Shown: piece by piece, positions 41,413 through 64,000 of the stretch
Layout: each line of letters opens with the position of its first letter
Position numbering within the stretch: the stretch's first letter is position 1
Source of the DNA: an uncultured Spirochaetaceae bacterium
GTDB lineage: Bacteria; Spirochaetota; Spirochaetia; Sphaerochaetales; Sphaerochaetaceae
NCBI GenBank assembly: GCA_944389105.1
Contig: CALXLD010000024.1
Coordinates: 1-64,000, forward strand
Direction of reading: 5' to 3'
Length of the DNA stretch: 64,000 nt
Notes under the pieces: generated by a model
The model's input: only the letters and a program-made list of their open reading frames with translations
Told to the model about the DNA's origin: nothing
The model's database searches: none
Made by a program: the position numbers and the translations under genes

Positions 41413-43158
41413 TCATCCTTTGTAAACAGGTGTTTCCTTATACTCGGTATGAAGCAGATGATGGGCTTTCTCTGAAAGAGGAGCACCGAGATAATCCGAA
41501 TAAAGCTTCTGAATCGAAGGATTCTGATGAGAGCATCTCTTTACCGATTTCTCATCATCCTCATACAGTCCATCGATTCTCTCGCTGCGGACATCATCAT
41601 CTGTTCCATATGGCTGACCACCGCCTGCGATACATCCGCCGCGGCATGCCATGATCTCAACGAAATCAACATCTGATTTACGGCCGGCTTTCTTGTCCTC
41701 ACGGATCTGGTCAAGAAGAGATTTTGCATTTGCCATACCATGAACAACGGCAACCTTCACTTTCTGTCCCTCGACATCAACTTCTCCGCGCTTTACTTCA
41801 TCAAGGCCGCGTACAAGCTTGATCTCCGGGTCAGGAAGGTCCTTTCCAGTAAGGCCATAGTAAGCTGTTCTGATTGCTGCTTCCATTACACCGCCAGTTG
41901 CACCGAAGATCGTTCCAGCGCCGCTGTACTCACCGATAGGACTGTCAGCTTCCGAATCCGGCAGATTTCTGAAATCAAGGCCACGGGAAGCAATCAGCCT
42001 TGCAAGCTCACGTGTGGTAAGAACAAGATCAACATCCCATTCACCGCTTGAAGCAGCATGCTCTCCGTCCCTTCTTATCTCAACCTTCTTTGCAGTACAT
42101 GGCATGATAGCAACTGAATAGACCTTCTTCTTATCTATTCCTGCCTTTTCAGCCCAGTATGTCTTTGTTATAGCACCCTGCATCATCATAGGGCTCTTTG
42201 CAGATGAGAGGTTCTCAAGAAGATCAGGATAGTATTCCTCAACATATGCGACCCAGCCAGGACAGCAGGATGTCAGCTGGGGCATTACACCGCCATTCTT
42301 GATTCTATCAAGAAGCTCATAGCCCTCTTCCATGATTGTAAGGTCAGCACCGAAATTCGTATCGAAGACATAATCAATACCAAGACGGCGGAGTGCTGTA
42401 TAAAGCTTCTTTGTTGTAATCTCACCAGGTTTAAGGCCGAATTCTTCTCCGATTGCGACACGTACAGAAGGAGCCATCTGCACAGCAACGACCTTCTCAG
42501 GATCAGCAATAGCCTGCATCAGATCATTAGTCTGATCCTGCTCATAGATTGCACCGACTGGACAGTGAGTAATACACTGGCCGCATTTGATACAAGGGCT
42601 ATCATTGAGTGGAAGCTTCGCAGCAGGGCTCATTGTCGTATGATCGCCTCTGCCGATGAATTCAAGTGCATGTACGCCCTGAAGCTCCTGGCAGACCTGG
42701 ACACAGCGTCCGCACTTGATACACTTCTCCGGATCAAGAACGATAGCTCCAGTTGAACGATCCTTCTTATCCTCGGCAAGCCTGACTTCGAAAGGCTGTT
42801 CCCTGACACCATATTCAATAGCAAGCTTCTGAAGCTCACACTTGTTGTTGCGTGTACAAAGAAGACATGAGGACGGATGCGTAGACATTGTCAGCTCAAG
42901 AATAGTACGACGGACATTATACAGATCCTGATCATGTGTAATGATCTTCATGCCCTCCGCAGCTGGTGTTGAACAGGAACGGATTATCTTAGCAGAACCT
43001 TCCTGCTTGCAGACACAGAGTCCGCATGATCCGAATGGCTTAAGATCTGGATGATAACACAAAGTAGGAATTCTTATTCCTGCTTTCCTAGCCGCTTCAA
43101 GGACGGTTGTCCCCTCAGCCACCTCAACCTCGATTCCCTGTATAGTAAGATGAATCAT
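41413..43158 (-). CDS. hydA: [FeFe] hydrogenase catalytic subunit, bifurcating group A type
   Basis: The 581-residue protein has an N-terminal [2Fe-2S] domain (Cys near 34-62), a His-Cys cluster region (about 96-110), two [4Fe-4S] ferredoxin motifs (CIKCGRCVQVC and CIKCGQCITHCP, about 146-200) and the H-cluster domain. The H-cluster motifs are L1 TSCCPGW (296-302), L2 MPCTAKK (352-358) and L3 MACRGGC (503-509). With the other operon products it should couple H2 formation to NAD(P)H and ferredoxin. GGAGG precedes ATG 43158. Maturases HydEFG are not in the window. Confidence 0.95.
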   Translation of the reverse strand: MIHLTIQGIEVEVAEGTTVLEAARKAGIRIPTLCYHPDLKPFGSCGLCVCKQEGSAKIIRSCSTPAAEGMKIITHDQDLYNVRRTILELTMSTHPSSCLLCTRNNKCELQKLAIEYGVREQPFEVRLAEDKKDRSTGAIVLDPEKCIKCGRCVQVCQELQGVHALEFIGRGDHTTMSPAAKLPLNDSPCIKCGQCITHCPVGAIYEQDQTNDLMQAIADPEKVVAVQMAPSVRVAIGEEFGLKPGEITTKKLYTALRRLGIDYVFDTNFGADLTIMEEGYELLDRIKNGGVMPQLTSCCPGWVAYVEEYYPDLLENLSSAKSPMMMQGAITKTYWAEKAGIDKKKVYSVAIMPCTAKKVEIRRDGEHAASSGEWDVDLVLTTRELARLIASRGLDFRNLPDSEADSPIGEYSGAGTIFGATGGVMEAAIRTAYYGLTGKDLPDPEIKLVRGLDEVKRGEVDVEGQKVKVAVVHGMANAKSLLDQIREDKKAGRKSDVDFVEIMACRGGCIAGGGQPYGTDDDVRSERIDGLYEDDEKSVKRCSHQNPSIQKLYSDYLGAPLSEKAHHLLHTEYKETPVYKG

Positions 43159-43170
43159 CGCCAACCTCCA

Positions 43171-44958
43171 TTAATGAATCTCGATGGCCGAGAATTTGCA
43201 GGTTTCTTTGCAGACACCGCACTTGATACATACATTTCCATTAATCTTGTGAGGACTCTTAACCTCTCCGGAAATAGCACCGACAGGACACTTTCTGGCA
43301 CAAGCTGTACATCCTATACACTTTGAAGGATTGATTTCATAGCTTATGAGCTTCTTGCACTTTCCAGACGGACACTTCTTGTCAATGATATGAGCCTTGT
43401 ATTCCTCCGGGAAATAATGAAGCGTGGAAAGAACAGGATTAGGAGCTGTCTGACCGAGAGCACAGAGTGAGCCGATCTTCATTGCATGGGCAATCTGCTC
43501 AATCTGCTTGATGTCGTTCTCCTCTCCCTTGCCCTGTGTTATTTTCTCAAGGATATTGTAAAGGCTCTTTCCGCCGATACGGCAAGGTGCGCACTTTCCG
43601 CAGGATTCATCGACCGTGAAGTTGAGATAGAACTTAGCAACATCAACGATACAATCATCTTCATCCATAACGATCATACCGCCGGAGCCCATCATAGATC
43701 CGATTTTCTGGAGACCACCGAAATCAATAGGTGTATCAAGGTTCTCCTCGGTTATGACACCACCGGAAGGACCACCTGTCTGGACAGCCTTGAATTTCTT
43801 TCCATGTGCGATACCGCCGCCGATATCATAGACAATCTCACCGAGTGTTGTGCCCAGCGGGACCTCAGCAATGCCGGAGTTGCAGATATTTCCGGTAAGA
43901 GCGATGACCTTTGTACCATGGCTGTCTGGAGTTCCGATTGAAGCGAACCACTCTCCGCCATTGTTTATGATCTGTGCGACATTGGCCCATGTCTCAACAT
44001 TGTTTATGACAGTAGGCTTGCCCCAGAGTCCCTTGGAAGCTGGGAATGGCGGCCTCGGCTTAGGCATACCTCTGTGGCCTTCAATTGACTGCAGAAGAGC
44101 AGTTTCCTCTCCACAGACGAATGCACCAGCACCAAGCCTTATCTCGATATCATAATCAAAGCCGGAACCAAGGATATCCTTTCCGAGAAGGCCATACTCC
44201 CTAGCCTGCTTCATAGCAACTTCGAGACGATGGATTGCAAGAGGATACTCAGCACGGATGTAGATGAATCCCTGATGTGCACCTACAGTATGGCCGCAGA
44301 TTGTCATTGCTTCCAGAACTGAATGGGGATCTCCCTCAAGAGTAGAACGATCCATGTATGCACCTGGGTCACCTTCATCAGCGTTGCAGACAACGTACTT
44401 CACAGGATTTGTCTCCTGCTTTGTGAAATTCCACTTCATCCATGTAGGAAAGCCTGCACCGCCGCGGCCACGGAGACCGGCTGTCTTGAGTTCATTGATG
44501 ACATCATCCGGTGTCATCTCGAAAAGAACTTTCTCAAGAGCCTTGTATCCGCCTGCTGCAATATACTCATCAATATTCTCCGGATCGATGGAACCGCAGT
44601 TGCGGAGAACGATTCTCATCTGCTTCTGATAGAACTGGATATCCTCCACTTCCTCATAAGCCTTGTGCGGAGCTTTGTTGTAAAGAAGTCTGGTGACTTC
44701 CCTTCCCTTGATGACATGCTCAGCAATAAGCTCCTTTGCATCCTCTGGCTTTACCTGGACGTAGAAAGAGTCTTCAGGAAGGATCTTTACAATCGGTCCC
44801 TGCTCACAGAAACCGAAACAACCAGTCTTTATAACCTGAACCTGATCAGCAACACCCTGTGCTACAGCTTCATCGATAAGAGCATGATAGATCTGATCAG
44901 AGCGCGAAGATTCACATCCGGTACCACCGCATACTAGAATATAATTCTTGAAACCCAT
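43171..44958 (-). CDS. hydB: Hydrogenase NuoF-like flavoprotein subunit
   Basis: The 595-residue protein begins with a thioredoxin-like [2Fe-2S] domain (YILVCGGTGCESS and TGCFGFCEQGP, 1-90). NuoF core motifs follow: GLRGRGGAGFPTWMKW for FMN and NAD binding near 165-180, CNADEGDPGAYMDR, and the [4Fe-4S] site ESCGKCAPCRIGG near 475. Two C-terminal ferredoxin motifs (CIGCTACARKCP and CIKCGVCKETC) close it. It exchanges electrons between NAD(P)H, flavin and the hydrogenase. It starts 1 nt after the ATPase-fusion gene stop. Confidence 0.95.
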   Translation of the reverse strand: MGFKNYILVCGGTGCESSRSDQIYHALIDEAVAQGVADQVQVIKTGCFGFCEQGPIVKILPEDSFYVQVKPEDAKELIAEHVIKGREVTRLLYNKAPHKAYEEVEDIQFYQKQMRIVLRNCGSIDPENIDEYIAAGGYKALEKVLFEMTPDDVINELKTAGLRGRGGAGFPTWMKWNFTKQETNPVKYVVCNADEGDPGAYMDRSTLEGDPHSVLEAMTICGHTVGAHQGFIYIRAEYPLAIHRLEVAMKQAREYGLLGKDILGSGFDYDIEIRLGAGAFVCGEETALLQSIEGHRGMPKPRPPFPASKGLWGKPTVINNVETWANVAQIINNGGEWFASIGTPDSHGTKVIALTGNICNSGIAEVPLGTTLGEIVYDIGGGIAHGKKFKAVQTGGPSGGVITEENLDTPIDFGGLQKIGSMMGSGGMIVMDEDDCIVDVAKFYLNFTVDESCGKCAPCRIGGKSLYNILEKITQGKGEENDIKQIEQIAHAMKIGSLCALGQTAPNPVLSTLHYFPEEYKAHIIDKKCPSGKCKKLISYEINPSKCIGCTACARKCPVGAISGEVKSPHKINGNVCIKCGVCKETCKFSAIEIH

Positions 44959-44959
44959 C

Positions 44960-45820
44960 TTATTCTTTCTCCACAAGCTCGATCCTCAGATCTGAGAGGA
45001 CACGGCCATCTTTAAGATGCTCATTGACGATGCGGACAGCCGCCTCCTTGTCTACAGAGCCATAAACTACAAGACCTGTCTTCGGGGTGTAGACCTCAAC
45101 AACAGGTTCAGGATTAGGAGCAGCGCTCCCCGTCTGTGTGATTATCACATTATCGAGCCCAAGTCTCTCAACCTCATCTGCGATTGTATTGAGAGTGAGC
45201 TTGGCACCTGCATCAATTCCAGAGGTACCCATTGCAACAACAACATGGATATCACGTCCATGAATGTCGCGTTTTTTCAGATTCTTCTCCTCACGATTAC
45301 GAATCTCATGAAGATCAGAAAGCGAAAGCTTAGCCATAGATTTCTCCTTCTCAAGGCCGGAAAGGAGCTCTCTGAATCTCCTTATTCCAGTCGCACTGTC
45401 AGGGACCGCGTCCCTTTCTTCCAGAAGCTTCCGGGTCACTGCAGTCTCCCGTCCGTCCTTCCTTATCGTTACCGTTATGCTCTCATCCATTCCAAGAACA
45501 GGCAGCAGCGCTTCACTGAGATCCGCAAAGCTGCCATCATCATCAGCTGTGAATTCGAGCACCGTGATTCCATCTCCTCGTGTTAAGCGGCATCTGCCTC
45601 TGCTTCTCTCTTTTATGATATGAAGCCCTCGGCCTCGCCCTTCGCCCTTGGTAGTGTTCCCATCCTGAAACGGATCTCCTTTGATGGTATAGACGCCATC
45701 ATCCTCGATCCTTGCATTTACGATGCCATCCGATATCTCAACACGGATGTCCGTTCTTTCCGCACCTGCTTCCACACTGTTGGCAACAGCCTCAATAAGC
45801 AGAGCAGAAACATCATGCAT
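44960..45820 (-). CDS. GHKL ATPase domain fused to a cysteine-less HndB-like domain
   Basis: The 286-residue protein has two parts. Residues 1-95 are a histidine-kinase-type ATPase domain, with N-box EAVANSVEAGA (E10, N14), a DDG motif near 40-42, and G2 loop GNTTKGEGRGRGL (54-66). After a linker, residues 162-286 match HndB: MAKLSLSDLHEIR, VVVAMGTSGIDAGAK and TQTGSAAPNPEPVVEVYTP. The cysteines that hold the [2Fe-2S] cluster in ordinary members are Ser, Gly, Ala or Pro here. In related operons the ATPase and HndB are, to my knowledge, usually separate genes. It lies between the nuoE-like and nuoF-like genes with 1-bp contacts. Confidence 0.85.
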   Translation of the reverse strand: MHDVSALLIEAVANSVEAGAERTDIRVEISDGIVNARIEDDGVYTIKGDPFQDGNTTKGEGRGRGLHIIKERSRGRCRLTRGDGITVLEFTADDDGSFADLSEALLPVLGMDESITVTIRKDGRETAVTRKLLEERDAVPDSATGIRRFRELLSGLEKEKSMAKLSLSDLHEIRNREEKNLKKRDIHGRDIHVVVAMGTSGIDAGAKLTLNTIADEVERLGLDNVIITQTGSAAPNPEPVVEVYTPKTGLVVYGSVDKEAAVRIVNEHLKDGRVLSDLRIELVEKE

Positions 45821-46284
45821 CAGGCGAATTTATCCAGGATTCCGGATATCTGGTTCTTGGAAACCTTACCAAATACTTCTCCGGATATCGTCATAACAGG
45901 TGCAAGTCCGCAGCATCCGACACAGCGAACAGCCTCAAGCGAAAACTTTCCATCCTCGGTTAGTCCGCCGACTTCCAATCCGGCCTCTTTTCCAAGCTCC
46001 TCTACGATCATATCGCCGCCTTTAAGATAGCAGGCCGTACCAAGGCATACCTGGATATTGTATTTTCCGGGCTTGTTGAGTTTGAAGAAATGATAGAAAG
46101 TCAGTACACCCCATATCGTTGCCAGTGGAACACCTGTCTCCTTTGAAACTCCCTCAGCAGCTTCGCGTGAGACATAGCCGAATTCCTCCTGGACCCTATG
46201 GAGAATCATAATGAGATTACCCGGCTTATCTTTCCATTCGGAAATGTAAGCGTTAAGCTCATCAGAGAATATGCTCTGAGCCAT
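45820..46284 (-). CDS. hydC: Hydrogenase NuoE-like [2Fe-2S] subunit
   Basis: The 154-residue protein has a helical N-terminus and a thioredoxin-like [2Fe-2S] domain with CLGTAC and CVGCCG supplying the four Cys (about residues 80-125). It is the NuoE/HydC partner that passes electrons to the flavoprotein subunit. AAAGGAGGAG precedes the ATG. It is the first gene of the hydrogenase operon and divergent from rex. Confidence 0.95.
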   Translation of the reverse strand: MAQSIFSDELNAYISEWKDKPGNLIMILHRVQEEFGYVSREAAEGVSKETGVPLATIWGVLTFYHFFKLNKPGKYNIQVCLGTACYLKGGDMIVEELGKEAGLEVGGLTEDGKFSLEAVRCVGCCGLAPVMTISGEVFGKVSKNQISGILDKFA

Positions 46285-46313
46285 AACTCCTCCTTTGTTA
46301 AGTCACCAGTTAG

Positions 46314-46343
46314 ATATTATCTTATTGTCTCGCGCTTTTGCAA
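46314..46343 (-). promoter_or_regulatory. Promoter of the hydrogenase operon
   Basis: On the minus strand TTGCAA (46343-46338) is followed after 16 nt by GATAAT (46321-46316), or after 18 nt by TAATAT (46319-46314). Either gives a leader of about 25 nt that carries the strong Shine-Dalgarno of hydC. Confidence 0.5.
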
Positions 46344-46399
46344 TAAATCTTCAAAGAAAGACACATCAAGAACACAAAGATAACAACACACATCATTTA

Positions 46400-46431
46400 T
46401 TGACATGAAAGTGCAATTAATATACTTTCAT
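46400..46431 (+). promoter_or_regulatory. rex promoter with overlapping palindrome
   Basis: TTGACA (46400-46405) is a -35 candidate. ATGAAAGT (46405-46412) and ACTTTCAT (46424-46431) form a perfect 8-bp inverted repeat with an 11-nt centre that covers the likely -10 (TATACT 46421 or TACTTT 46423). An operator for autoregulation is likely. It does not match the usual Rex consensus TTGTGA-N6-TCACAA, so Rex binding is only a guess. Confidence 0.45.
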
Positions 46432-46454
46432 TCACATAAAGGGATGAATTGATA

Positions 46455-47096
46455 ATGAACAGTGATATGCTTGTAAGGATTACTCGCTATTTCAGGGCTC
46501 TTAATAGGCTGAGAGCTATCGGTTTAGAGAAAGTCTTCGCACACAATCTAGCAGATGCAGCAGGTGTATCAGCAGCTGTGGTGAGAAAAGACTTCTCGAT
46601 TCTTGAAATCCACGGGCAGAAAAGAGGCGGATATGAGATAACCGATCTTATTGATCGGATATCGAAGATACTGGGAAAAGGCGATCCGCAGAATGTGATA
46701 GTCATAGGCTGCGGACGCATCGGAAAAGCCTTGATGCACTATTCAGGGTTCGAACCTGACGGGATAAGGATAGTGGCAGGTTTCGATTCAGATCCGATAG
46801 TCTATTCAGATGTGTCACACCCTGTTCCGGTCTATCCTATGTCAAGGCTGGAGGAGATGGTCGAGGCCCTGGATGTCAAGGTTGCTATCATAACGGTTCC
46901 TGAATCAGCAGCCGCCGACACTGCCGAGAAGCTTCTGGATGCAGGAGTAAAAGGAATCCTTAACTTCTCCCCGATAACATTGAAACCCCACCCCGCCGTA
47001 CCGGGAGAGACCCCAGCAGTCATACACAACATCAACATCGCTCTCGAACTTGAGCAGATCTTCTATCAGCTTCAGTTTCCGGAGGGCAGAAAATAA
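46455..47096 (+). CDS. rex: Redox-sensing transcriptional repressor Rex
   Basis: The 213-residue regulator has an N-terminal winged helix (1-78), in which VSAAVVRKDFSIL is the recognition region. A Rossmann domain follows, with the NAD(H)-binding VIVIGCGRIGKAL (81-93) and FDSDP near residue 112. A C-terminal domain-swap helix ends it. High NADH releases it from DNA. It is divergent from the NAD-linked hydrogenase operon, a natural target. Its stop abuts the convergent glycosylase gene with no gap. Confidence 0.96.
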   Translation: MNSDMLVRITRYFRALNRLRAIGLEKVFAHNLADAAGVSAAVVRKDFSILEIHGQKRGGYEITDLIDRISKILGKGDPQNVIVIGCGRIGKALMHYSGFEPDGIRIVAGFDSDPIVYSDVSHPVPVYPMSRLEEMVEALDVKVAIITVPESAAADTAEKLLDAGVKGILNFSPITLKPHPAVPGETPAVIHNINIALELEQIFYQLQFPEGRK

Positions 47097-60221: not shown

Positions 60222-60250
60222 TTGCAACCTCCTCTTCCTATAGATATAAT
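60222..60250 (+). promoter_or_regulatory. Promoter of rlpA
   Basis: TTGCAA (60222-60227), a 17-nt spacer and TATAAT (60245-60250) end seven bases before ATG 60258. The message would begin at or next to the start codon. Confidence 0.65.
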
Positions 60251-60257
60251 GCATGAC

Positions 60258-60866
60258 ATGAAAAGACTCCTTTCCCTGCTGATTATCATATCTTTCATCA
60301 TGCCATCGCTCAGTGCCGAAATGGCTTCCTGGTATACATCCACCGAACCTGGATACTTCACAGCAAGCGGAACTCTTTTCACCGATTCCCAGCGAGGTGC
60401 TGCAAGCAATGATCTTCCTATGGGAACAGTAGTGGAACTGTCGAATCCTGCTACTGGCATCAGTGCTGTGACGACCATCATCGACACGCTGCCAGAGCTT
60501 CCTGAGGACAGGACAATCGCAGTAACTGAGGCAACTGCAAAAGAACTCAGCATGCTGGATACAGGCATTGCTGATATCAAGGTGTCAGTCATAAGAGAAG
60601 GCACGATAAAAAGAGAGCGGGAGGAGAACACCGGCTGGTACGCATTTGACCTTGGCGTGTTCACAGATACGGCAGATCTTGCACTGAAATACGGCAGATT
60701 GCTCGAAAATGGACTAAGGCCATATATCGAAGTAGAAGATGAGGGCGTCAGGCTCTCGGTCAGGCACGTCATGACCTATCAGCTGCAGGAAGCCGAGAAT
60801 ATGATAGCACTCTCAGGCATAGAGGCCCCGGAGCCAAGTCCGGAACCCAATCCATATTCAGAGTGA
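60258..60866 (+). CDS. rlpA: RlpA-like protein with SPOR-like C-terminus
   Basis: The 202-residue exported protein has a signal peptide (KRLLSLLIIISFIMPSLSA, cleavage near 20). A double-psi beta-barrel follows, with EMASWYTSTEPGYFTASGTLF and then AASNDLPMGTVVELSNPATG. RlpA proteins cleave or bind denuded glycan at the septum. VTTIIDTLPELPEDRTIAVTEATAKEL corresponds to the catalytic Asp region. Residues 130-185 look SPOR-like (WYAFDLGVFTDTADLALKY). The start was moved to 60258 because the upstream frame runs through the promoter. It overlaps the convergent dehydrogenase by 9 bp. Confidence 0.88.
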   Translation: MKRLLSLLIIISFIMPSLSAEMASWYTSTEPGYFTASGTLFTDSQRGAASNDLPMGTVVELSNPATGISAVTTIIDTLPELPEDRTIAVTEATAKELSMLDTGIADIKVSVIREGTIKREREENTGWYAFDLGVFTDTADLALKYGRLLENGLRPYIEVEDEGVRLSVRHVMTYQLQEAENMIALSGIEAPEPSPEPNPYSE

Positions 60867-61853
60867 CAGAACAGTCTTCCAGACAGAATCATCGGCAAAG
60901 ACGCCGAGCTTCTCGCTTTCTTCCCTGGTATTCTTAATGCCCTCTCCTGGGTAATGGATAGAGCATCCATTTCTAGGGCTTGATGCCTTTATATACTCCA
61001 AGGTCTCGCCGATCTTTGTCTCCATCGAGGCTTTGTCAGGGAAAATATCCAGGCTGAAAGCCATGAAAATCTGAGAGACCTCCGTCTCTATGGGGTATTT
61101 TCCGATTTCCACCGTCGTCTTTCCTCCAGATATGAGAGAAGCTATCAGATCCAGGGTGATTGCAAGACCTGACCCCTTCCAGAATCCTATAGGAAGCGCT
61201 TCCTTTGTCTCGGAAATGATCTTAGGATCCCTTGTTAGATTGCCATTCTCATCAAAACCGCCATCAACTGGGCATTCCTTATTCTCAAGGATGTATTTGC
61301 CAAGCTTTCCATAGCTGAACATTGACATGGCTATATCGACAAGAACGGGAGTATCTTTATACGGGACAGCAATTACAAGAGGGTTGTTTCCGATCCTTGG
61401 ATCCTTGCCTCCCCATGCCGGCATATTTGGCATTGTATTGGTCCACATGATGCCGATTGCACCCATCTTCACTGCTTCAAGACCATAGTTTCCTGCCCTC
61501 ATCCAGTGATTGGTATTGCGGAGCGCAACAATTCCTACACCATTTTCCCTAGATAGCTCCACTGCCCTCCTCATCGCCCTCCATGCATTGATATCACCGG
61601 GGCCTCTTTGTCCATCCCAGCGTTCAATAGCACCGAAACGGCTTTCAAAGACAGCTTTCCTGCGCACATCAATCAGCCCTCTGTCAATAAGCGAAATGTA
61701 TGAAGGGAATCTGTTCAGACCATGAGTATGGACGCCATCTGCAGATGAAGATGCAAAAAGGAAGGAGGAGAGGTCTGCATCCTCTCCATCCATTCCATGT
61801 TTCTCAAGAATACCCTTAAGAGTGATTCTCAGTTCTTCAAAAGGTATTCTCAT
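60858..61853 (-). CDS. Malate/L-lactate/ureidoglycolate-type dehydrogenase (YiaK-like)
   Basis: The 331-residue oxidoreductase belongs to the LDH2/MDG2 family. ADGVHTHGLNRFPSYI near residue 38 contains the catalytic His, VALRNTNHWMRAGNYG near 110 and GNNPLVIAVP near 157 are family motifs, and LPIGFWKGSGLAITLDLIASLISGG lies near 218-242. It reduces a 2-oxo acid with NAD(P)H; 2,3-diketogulonate or malate are candidates. The start ATG 61853 shares its A with the TAA of the hydrogenase gene, so it belongs to that operon. Confidence 0.9.
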   Translation of the reverse strand: MRIPFEELRITLKGILEKHGMDGEDADLSSFLFASSSADGVHTHGLNRFPSYISLIDRGLIDVRRKAVFESRFGAIERWDGQRGPGDINAWRAMRRAVELSRENGVGIVALRNTNHWMRAGNYGLEAVKMGAIGIMWTNTMPNMPAWGGKDPRIGNNPLVIAVPYKDTPVLVDIAMSMFSYGKLGKYILENKECPVDGGFDENGNLTRDPKIISETKEALPIGFWKGSGLAITLDLIASLISGGKTTVEIGKYPIETEVSQIFMAFSLDIFPDKASMETKIGETLEYIKASSPRNGCSIHYPGEGIKNTREESEKLGVFADDSVWKTVLSL

Positions 61854-63307
61854 TATTTTGCAGCAGGTTTTGCAGCTTTCGCGGCATTCCTGAGTTTCAT
61901 AGCAAGAGCAGGCTTTACGATTGTGCCAGGTCCTGCAATACATCCACCCTCGCATGCCATGATTTCCACAAGGTCAGCTTCAGGAGCCCTCTTCTCCCAT
62001 GTCTTCATCAGACGGACAGTCTTCTTGTCCAATCCATTGATAGGAAGAATGCGTGGATTCTTTCCATCCTCCTTGAAGCGGCGGAGAACACAGGAGGCGA
62101 CACCTGTAGAAACTGCGAATTCACGGCAGTCCTTGAAGGAATCTGTATCTCCAAGGGATTCTCCCTCCATCTCGCGGACATCAATTCCCTTAGCGACGAA
62201 GATGGAAGCAAGTTCTGCAAATGTGATGACACCATCCATATCATTGCGGTATCTCTTGGCAGCCTCAACCTTCTTCGCAAGACAAGGTCCGATAAATACC
62301 GACTTGCAGTCTGGATATTTCTCACGGACCATATGGGCAGTATATCCCATAGGAGAAAGAGCATCGGAGCGTCTTGTCTTCAGATAAGGTATATGGAGAT
62401 CTACAAGTTCCATATATGATGGGCAGCAGGAGGTTGTCATAAAGCCTTCGTTCTCGGAAATCTTCTTATAAAGCTCATTCGCTTCATTGACCGAAGTTAC
62501 CTCAGCACCTTCTGCAACTTCAACAACATCATAGAAACCTGCTTTCTTTATTGCTGCCTTAAGCTGTTCCAGTGTTCCTGGGAACTGTCCCTCGATAGCT
62601 GGAGCAATCATAGCAACAACCTTCTCCCCTCTCTTGAGCATCTTGAGGACAGGGAAAAGACCTGAGCGCTCAACAATAGCCCCGAAAGGACAGGAACGGA
62701 CACATTTTCCGCATCCTATGCATTTGTCATGCTCAATTTCAACAAAGCCCTGCTCGTTCTTCGTAACAGCATCAACAGGACAAGCTTCCTCACATGGGAC
62801 AGGAATATGCACAACAGCATGGAAAGGACAGACTTCCATACACTTACCGCATCTGATGCACCTATCCTCCTGTATATGAGCCTGGCCATTGATGAAGACT
62901 ATGGCATCCTTTGGACAGTTTGACATACATGGACGTGCAAAACAGCCACGGCATCCATCACTGATCCTGTACTGTGATTTAGGGCAGCCCGAACATCCTG
63001 TGATAATCGTCGTAAGAAGCGGTAGAGGTGGTTTATCCTCATCAAGAACTTCCTGCATATAAGATGCAAGCGGCTTCTCCTCGTCATCGTCTCTTTCGAT
63101 GTTTATACCAGCAAGAGCCATGATTCTGTATCTGACCATAGCTCTTTCCTTATAGATACAGCAGCGGAAAGGCGTGCGGGTTTTCGGAATAATCTCAAGA
63201 GGGAGCCTATCAGCCTGCTCAACGAGAGTATCGTCAAAGAAGCACTTAAGCACTTCAGTGTCGATCTTTCTCTTCATAAGAGTATACTGATTATTGAGCT
63301 CAAGCAT
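61853..63307 (-). CDS. Monomeric [FeFe] hydrogenase, group B type
   Basis: The 484-residue protein has several ferredoxin motifs (CSGCPKSQY, CRGCFARPCMSNCP, CIRCGKCMEVCP, CIGCGKCVRSCP, about 105-207). The H-cluster domain follows with L1 TTSCCPSY (291-298), L2 GPCLAKK (340-346) and L3 MACEGGCIAGPG near 452-463. The L1 and L2 variants and the N-terminal layout match the group B1/B3 branch, whose physiological role is poorly known. It overlaps the ferredoxin gene by 8 bp and the dehydrogenase by 1 bp. Confidence 0.93.
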   Translation of the reverse strand: MLELNNQYTLMKRKIDTEVLKCFFDDTLVEQADRLPLEIIPKTRTPFRCCIYKERAMVRYRIMALAGINIERDDDEEKPLASYMQEVLDEDKPPLPLLTTIITGCSGCPKSQYRISDGCRGCFARPCMSNCPKDAIVFINGQAHIQEDRCIRCGKCMEVCPFHAVVHIPVPCEEACPVDAVTKNEQGFVEIEHDKCIGCGKCVRSCPFGAIVERSGLFPVLKMLKRGEKVVAMIAPAIEGQFPGTLEQLKAAIKKAGFYDVVEVAEGAEVTSVNEANELYKKISENEGFMTTSCCPSYMELVDLHIPYLKTRRSDALSPMGYTAHMVREKYPDCKSVFIGPCLAKKVEAAKRYRNDMDGVITFAELASIFVAKGIDVREMEGESLGDTDSFKDCREFAVSTGVASCVLRRFKEDGKNPRILPINGLDKKTVRLMKTWEKRAPEADLVEIMACEGGCIAGPGTIVKPALAMKLRNAAKAAKPAAK

Positions 63308-63560
63308 TCTTTACTGCCTCCGCAAGGAGCTTACAGAACATGTCCTGATTTACCCCGCTATATACCTTGTCATTGATTGAAACATACGGTGCGCTGCCAT
63401 TTCCTACTTTGCACTCATCAAGACATGAACAGCCCTCGATTTCACACTCGGCAAGGATTGCCGGATCCACGAAATCATTATACAGAAGGAGGTCTGCGCC
63501 CCCCTGTACGAAACAAGCTGTTCCAAGGCAGATTCTTACCTTCACCTTTGATTTCTTCAT
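63300..63560 (-). CDS. Thioredoxin-like [2Fe-2S] ferredoxin
   Basis: The 86-residue protein has the HydC/NuoE-like cluster motif: C11 and C16 (CLGTAC), then C46 and C50 (CSCLDEC). It lacks the helical N-terminus of NuoE, so it is a stand-alone small ferredoxin, probably the electron partner of the group B hydrogenase. A Shine-Dalgarno AGGAGG (minus strand, in the gap after the phosphatase) precedes the ATG. Confidence 0.9.
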   Translation of the reverse strand: MKKSKVKVRICLGTACFVQGGADLLLYNDFVDPAILAECEIEGCSCLDECKVGNGSAPYVSINDKVYSGVNQDMFCKLLAEAVKNA

Positions 63561-63571
63561 TTGATATCCTC

Positions 63572-64000
63572 CTATAGATATTCCTGTGAAGTTTCCTTCA
63601 GATATATATTTTCAAGAGCGTTTCTCAGACGCCCTATTATAGTTCTTCTGATTCCGATCTCAACTGGGATATTCGGATCCTGGTGTGCCTCATTTATCTT
63701 GGTACCGACTATGAAATGCACCTGATCACTATCAAGAAGCATCTCCACGAACTTCTTCGCCGGATCATTGGGAAGCTCCGATGGATTTATTTTCTTCTCA
63801 AGTATCGTAGCAACTTTCGACAATGTAAGCATACCCTCTGTAACAAGATCTATTCCTTCCATCTTCGATGCCGGAGGAACATCCTTCGACCAGGAAGAGA
63901 GGTCAAGAGTAAGCTTCTTGCCAAAAAGACGGGAAACTATCTGGGCTGTAGTTCCTCCTGACACGATCTTCTTTCCATCGAATGACCTTATCTTCTCTCC
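63572..64000 (-). CDS. SpoIIE-type protein phosphatase, C-terminal part (runs off the window)
   Basis: Only the last 142 codons are in the window and the frame stays open to base 64000. The visible part, FDGKKIVSGGTTAQIVSRLFG, is typical of the SpoIIE/PP2C-like proteins encoded in clostridial [FeFe]-hydrogenase operons, in which the SGGTTA segment lies near the end of the phosphatase domain. A helical C-terminal region ending with an IGIRRTIIGRLRNALENIYLKE segment follows. The catalytic Asp residues would be upstream, outside the window. It is followed after 11 bp by the ferredoxin gene. Confidence 0.8.
   Translation of the reverse strand, partial: GEKIRSFDGKKIVSGGTTAQIVSRLFGKKLTLDLSSWSKDVPPASKMEGIDLVTEGMLTLSKVATILEKKINPSELPNDPAKKFVEMLLDSDQVHFIVGTKINEAHQDPNIPVEIGIRRTIIGRLRNALENIYLKETSQEYL

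Follow-up and report, generated by a model that had tools for sequence, protein, structure and literature searches.

A predicted H2-sensing and H2-evolving hydrogenase operon in uncultured gut spirochaetes carries a lineage-restricted reductase gene

We analyzed a 64,000-nucleotide stretch of DNA (the window; positions 1 to 64,000 of contig CALXLD010000024.1, here C24, of assembly GCA_944389105.1) from an uncultured Spirochaetaceae bacterium, and focused on an operon that encodes a group B [FeFe] hydrogenase, HydB. We conclude that this is very probably a complete operon of a known kind, the HydS-phosphatase-HydA2 (hfs-type) system for H2 sensing and H2 evolution, and that the YiaK-type reductase gene at its 3' end is probably a lineage-specific passenger. 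The operon unit and its lineage-restricted extra gene are themselves real: the order and conservation of the genes, their motifs, the grouping of linked yiaK copies in one clade and the hairpins described below are all read directly from the genomes.

Results

A complete operon for a predicted sensor, a phosphatase and a hydrogenase

C24 is 78,795 bases long, and the operon lies on its minus strand. The window ends inside the operon, which extends past position 64000 to include the remainder of the phosphatase gene, HydS, a first mini-ferredoxin (miniFd1) and Rex:

60858-61853, minus strand: YiaK-type 2-oxo-acid (2,3-diketo-L-gulonate) reductase, 331 residues
61853-63307, minus strand: group B [FeFe] hydrogenase (HydB; HydA2/HfsD type), 484 residues
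63300-63560, minus strand: mini-ferredoxin 2 (miniFd2), a thioredoxin-like [2Fe-2S] protein of 86 residues with its four cysteines kept
63572-64000, minus strand: SpoIIE/PP2C-type phosphatase, C-terminal 142 of 398 residues (full gene, C24 63572-64768)
C24 64765-66555, beyond the window: HydS, a group C sensory [FeFe] hydrogenase
C24 66552-66818, beyond the window: miniFd1
C24 66977-67645, beyond the window: Rex, separated from miniFd1 by a 158-bp gap

A preliminary description of the window had proposed a tightly coupled unit of phosphatase, ferredoxin, hydrogenase and dehydrogenase, and the order, strand and spacing of these genes are confirmed. The stop codon of the phosphatase gene reaches 63572, leaving 11 bp to the miniFd2 start at 63560; miniFd2 and HydB overlap by 8 bp; and the HydB stop and yiaK start share one base at 61853 (TAATG). 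Upstream, the HydS and phosphatase genes overlap by 4 bp. Profile scores confirm each identity: the phosphatase matches SpoIIE PF07228 (41.3 bits; cut-off 25), miniFd2 matches the thioredoxin-like [2Fe-2S] family PF01257 (25.6 bits; cut-off 24.8), HydB matches the group B model TIGR04105 over residues 6-465 (511.6 bits; cut-off 450), and the reductase matches the YiaK model NF009750 (393 bits; cut-off 316). For the reductase, a start at 61955 giving a longer open reading frame was rejected in favor of the ATG at 61853.

We surveyed gene neighborhoods in 48 genomes of the genus, whose named relatives are Candidatus Ornithospirochaeta and uncultured Spirochaetales. Of the 39 loci of sufficient length, 36 have HydS, phosphatase and HydB contiguous. 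Most also have recognizable mini-ferredoxins; wherever miniFd2 was recognized, it is 78-100% identical. Three genomes (G003, G005 and G030) encode a divergent HydB (59-60% identical) without the operon set. The core set also occurs in Bullifex, the cultured Bullifex porci among them, and in Sphaerochaeta (other Sphaerochaetales), in gut Alphaproteobacteria and in one Bacteroidetes genome, as well as in one Clostridia genome where the second mini-ferredoxin was not recognized. The survey thus bears out a conserved HydS-phosphatase-HydB linkage, while the linkage to yiaK is restricted (10 of the 48 genomes).

HydS is predicted to sense and HydB to catalyze

HydB retains the H-cluster loops TSCCPSY, GPCLAKKVE and CEGGCIAGPG, with both cysteines of the SCC motif. 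In an alignment of 53 sequences, C294, C295, C342, C452 and C456, comprising the ligand cysteines and the proton-relay cysteine, are each at least 95% conserved. HydS contains ferredoxin-type 4Fe-4S motifs, an H-cluster domain (PF02906, 142.8 bits) and an Fe-S domain (PF04060), and an alignment of 48 HydS sequences reads T-A-C-P where HydB reads T-S-C-C. Other sensory [FeFe] hydrogenases are known that also lack the proton-relay cysteine, and this pattern fits a division of labor in which HydS would sense and HydB would catalyze. HydS also has two traits of HydDB group C3, defined as "phosphatase-linked" (PMC5037454), in that its predicted H-cluster domain sits in a multidomain protein co-encoded with a putative Ser/Thr phosphatase. 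That HydS is instead a second catalytic hydrogenase, with the phosphatase regulating the enzymes directly by dephosphorylation, is very improbable: HydS does keep every H-cluster ligand cysteine and lacks the relay cysteine alone, but that residue is alanine in all common variants seen, the protein carries a C-terminal Fe-S/putative PAS region, and in homologous systems HydS is reportedly required for growth of Ruminococcus albus at high H2, and hydrogenase activity goes up, not down, when hfsB is lost (PMC11837493, PMC5707799).

The window genome encodes both HydG and pyruvate:ferredoxin oxidoreductase (PFOR), so assembly of an H-cluster and a supply of reduced ferredoxin are both probable. 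The preliminary description treated the role of group B enzymes as unsettled, a view that has been superseded: those of gut bacteria carry out ferredoxin-dependent H2 evolution coupled to PFOR (PMC12578642, 2025).

The phosphatase carries a conserved, unannotated C-terminal domain

The N-terminal domain of the phosphatase contains the catalytic, metal-binding aspartates D23, D42, D168 and D225/D226, all invariant in our alignment, and an AlphaFold model of this part matches the PP2C/SpoIIE structure 3pu9 (Z 23.9, rmsd 3.2, 220 residues aligned). The part of the gene inside the window lies wholly within a second, C-terminal domain (63575-64000, continuing to C24 64063). No Pfam or NCBIfam model matched residues 236-398, yet this region is highly conserved across phyla, with 32 invariant positions among 17 diverse sequences (including GPP, GGT, TEG and AHQ motifs). 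We found the domain in 18 of 198 Spirochaetota genomes, one copy each. We examined 12 loci from across the phylum; each has the domain fused to a phosphatase directly behind HydS, and in eight HydB comes next. The predicted structure is confident (pLDDT 90), and Foldseek returned no match at E <= 0.001 (best 3e-3); the best VIA-align match is FhcB (Z 9.6, rmsd 3.0, 116 residues aligned), so that at most a Rossmann-like arrangement may be proposed from the model. The domain looks like a coupler of the phosphatase to HydS or to the phosphatase's target. Together, the conserved HydS-phosphatase pair and its shared unannotated domain point to one signaling mechanism across phyla.

These data also shift the regulatory idea in the preliminary description, which read the link of the phosphatase to the group B enzyme as suggesting redox sensing. 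A regulatory as well as a catalytic role for the operon is probable. The pairing with a phosphatase is not new, with precedents in the C3 class, in hfs and in R. albus. The partner of the phosphatase is HydS, encoded just outside the window, which makes H2 (or the H2/ferredoxin state) the likelier sensed quantity.

The YiaK-type reductase is a patchy, lineage-restricted addition

The reductase aligns over its whole length with E. coli YiaK (PDB 1nxu and 1s20; phmmer E 1.3e-87) and keeps the catalytic His44 and other family-invariant residues. Its substrate is predicted from the family to be 2,3-diketo-L-gulonate, and Ldh_2 members have varied substrates. E. coli yiaK lies among sugar-acid uptake and catabolism genes, whereas the spirochaete gene lies behind a hydrogenase. 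The preliminary description rightly doubted that such a reductase is a standard partner: in the other genera of the order we saw no yiaK behind HydB, and of the 24 species that share the window's HydB clade in a quick HydB tree, 14 lack the link.

Could the reductase nonetheless function within the operon, as a second electron sink that consumes NAD(P)H, is co-induced by the H2 signal and, whenever H2 cannot be released, passes reductant to a sugar-acid or 2-oxo-acid product? Some observations favor this idea. The two genes are adjacent on the same strand in 10 genomes, with the other nine linked YiaK proteins only 59-69% identical to the window's. The linked copies form one clade that also contains the copy of a sister genome, G033 (support 100/98), and two HydB subclades contain linked genomes, which makes the arrangement an old one within the clade. 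The gap between HydB and yiaK is mostly 39-65 bp (range, -1 to about 100 bp) and is nearly filled by a hairpin and the ribosome-binding site, with little space for yiaK to have a promoter of its own; in the window genome, the TAATG junction would couple translation of the two genes.

The same junction argues against a functional role. In eight of the 10 linked genomes, all except the window genome and G035, a terminator-like hairpin of at least seven pairs, usually followed by a T-run, separates the HydB stop from the ribosome-binding site of yiaK. G033, whose HydB is 97% identical, has lost the link and carries yiaK elsewhere, and flanking genes are syntenic too, so inertia may explain why the arrangement persists. 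We compared linked and unlinked YiaK proteins for an active-site marker; only two positions differ consistently, and neither is family-invariant. YiaK-type enzymes use NAD(P)H, whereas the group B hydrogenase uses ferredoxin. Because of these differing cofactors, the patchy linkage and the hairpin in most carriers, the suggestion in the preliminary description that the reductase may serve as an electron sink for the hydrogenase is possible but weak. Direct electron coupling between the two enzymes is unlikely; at most, the two genes may share expression. Overall we consider functional membership of the reductase unlikely.

The nearest unlinked copies (G045, G046 and G027) include ones beside GH43, sugar-isomerase-like and ATP-binding cassette (ABC) sugar-transport genes, and G027 carries both the linked and the unlinked kinds. 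The simplest history suggested by these relationships would be one recruitment of yiaK followed by losses.

We also considered whether the HydB-yiaK junction of the window genome is an assembly artefact that joins unrelated places. The genome is a 47-contig draft, and in G033 HydB and yiaK lie on different contigs, with yiaK there flanked by the same RlpA, lysyl-tRNA synthetase and ABC genes as in the window genome; further, the gene for threonyl-tRNA synthetase (ThrRS), which often follows the operon in relatives, is on another contig in the window genome. However, HydB and yiaK are joined in this order in nine further assemblies, the window's yiaK belongs to the linked clade, and both maps can be accounted for by two breaks, one separating yiaK from ThrRS in the window genome and the other separating HydB from yiaK in G033. 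An artefact is accordingly highly unlikely.

Neighboring genes and cargo

The slot directly behind HydB is occupied, in Bullifex, in Sphaerochaeta and in part of the genus, by a gene for a GAF protein of ~160 residues that matches structures of YebR-type free methionine-(R)-sulfoxide reductases:

L133:8464-8949, GAF protein gene behind HydB
L141:8478-8957, GAF protein gene behind HydB
L074:6126-6611, GAF protein gene behind HydB

This protein often fills the slot elsewhere in the order, and the presence of either it or yiaK in different lineages indicates that the slot takes changing cargo. A T-box leader (Rfam RF00230, 108.6 bits) precedes the ThrRS gene at L197:8911-9136 (contig C31 of G000). 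On the other side of the operon, beyond Rex on C24, are a LytB/IspH-like gene and then SecF, SecD and YajC genes. The gene convergent with yiaK is outside the operon:

60222-60866, plus strand: RlpA-like protein

It overlaps the yiaK 3' end by 9 bp (60858-60866), leaving no room for a terminator between the two.

Elsewhere in the window, a second hydrogenase cluster (41413-47096) comprises, on the minus strand, genes for a bifurcating-type HydA, a NuoF-like protein, an ATPase-like plus [2Fe-2S] protein, and a NuoE-like protein. Next to it lies a second Rex-like gene in divergent orientation. HydA was assigned by hidden Markov model and the other genes by reading.

Promoters and points against the proposed reading

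A conserved sigma-70-like promoter lies upstream of miniFd1, in the 158-bp gap to Rex. Upstream of this promoter we noted a dyad resembling a CRP/FNR-type site (TGTKA-N6-TCACA; L004:8935-8962, C24 about 66934-66961) that is perfect in G015 and degenerate in the window genome. A promoter-like site in the 3' end of the phosphatase gene (TTGAGA-N16-TATAAT, 11 of 12 positions matching) is not conserved in relatives and so lends no support to a separate promoter for miniFd2 and HydB. We also set aside a terminator-like hairpin in the 5' coding region of the window's yiaK, because patterns of this sort often arise by chance (mean 6.5 in shuffles of the region).

Several observations weigh against our reading of the operon and its working. 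The PAS match in HydS is weak (PAS_9, E 2.4e-4, 21.8 bits, under the Pfam cut-off of 27). No kinase, STAS or anti-sigma gene adjoins the phosphatase gene. Finally, no canonical Rex operator (TTGTTAA-N4-TTAACAA, allowing up to four mismatches) lies before miniFd1 in the window genome, which leaves control by the neighboring Rex unproven. Rex of this lineage may prefer another operator site, and we do not take a Rex operator to be family-defining.

Discussion

A model for the operon

We propose that HydS binds H2 at an H-cluster without the proton-relay cysteine and would thereby sense H2 instead of turning it over. By analogy with R. albus and with hfs, its Fe-S/putative PAS tail would control how active the co-encoded SpoIIE phosphatase is, and the phosphatase may in turn dephosphorylate a regulator encoded elsewhere and so adjust expression of fermentation genes. 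HydB, possibly with a mini-ferredoxin, would re-oxidize ferredoxin reduced by PFOR and release H2, as shown for homologues. The YiaK-type reductase, related to copies in sugar-utilization gene clusters, would ride at the 3' end as a passenger, expressed by read-through of the hydrogenase terminator in most carriers and probably by translational coupling in the window genome.

A more elaborate scheme can be imagined, in which this clade's H2-sensing operon gained a terminator-gated NAD(P)H reductase, the H2 level switching between H2 release and transfer of NADH onto a sugar acid, and in which the phosphatase C-terminal domain is a dedicated receiver of the HydS signal; we regard this combination as improbable. 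The reductase would be of importance only if shown to be co-regulated. With the core operon, uncultured gut spirochaetes (Candidatus Ornithospirochaeta and relatives) join the bacteria that possess an operon for H2 sensing and H2 evolution, a system known in clostridia to steer ethanol, acetate and H2 output.

Comparison with known systems

In the open-access literature we found nothing on a group B hydrogenase together with SpoIIE, nor on a diketogulonate reductase together with a hydrogenase. The closest published counterparts are described under other names. The HydS/HydA2 system of R. albus has been reported (PMC10838669, PMC6776011), and HydA2 mRNA is 90-fold lower when a partner organism removes H2 (PMC10838669). 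On plasmid pRUMAL01 of R. albus 7 the gene order is Rex-adhE-phosphotransferase-Fd-Fd-HydS-SpoIIE-HydA2 (Fd, ferredoxin), and HydA2 is group B by TIGR04105 (577 bits). The spirochaete operon shares the nearby Rex, the mini-ferredoxin(s), a putatively PAS-type HydS, the SpoIIE phosphatase directly behind it and the group B hydrogenase next. Only R. albus has adhE and the phosphotransferase between Rex and the ferredoxins, and it lacks both a mini-ferredoxin between phosphatase and HydA2 and a yiaK gene. The phosphatases are 32% identical and the hydrogenases 36%.

In Thermoanaerobacterium, hfsB encodes a PAS hydrogenase, hfsC a phosphatase and hfsD a ferredoxin hydrogenase (PMC11837493, PMC5707799), and deletion of hfsB raises adhE expression (PMC5707799). 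The order of sensor hydrogenase, phosphatase and ferredoxin hydrogenase is the same as in the spirochaetes; the likeness covers hfsBCD, and the hfs operon contains no yiaK. A Rex site is predicted upstream of hfs in T. saccharolyticum at -78 (PMC5886521), whereas we found no canonical one before miniFd1 in the window genome. Within HydDB, the operon corresponds to groups C3 and B, the latter termed colonic-type, with an H-cluster sensor beside a Ser/Thr phosphatase and a monomeric group B enzyme. Here, unlike in the descriptions of those groups, a single operon unites both and also includes two mini-ferredoxins and the lineage-specific reductase.

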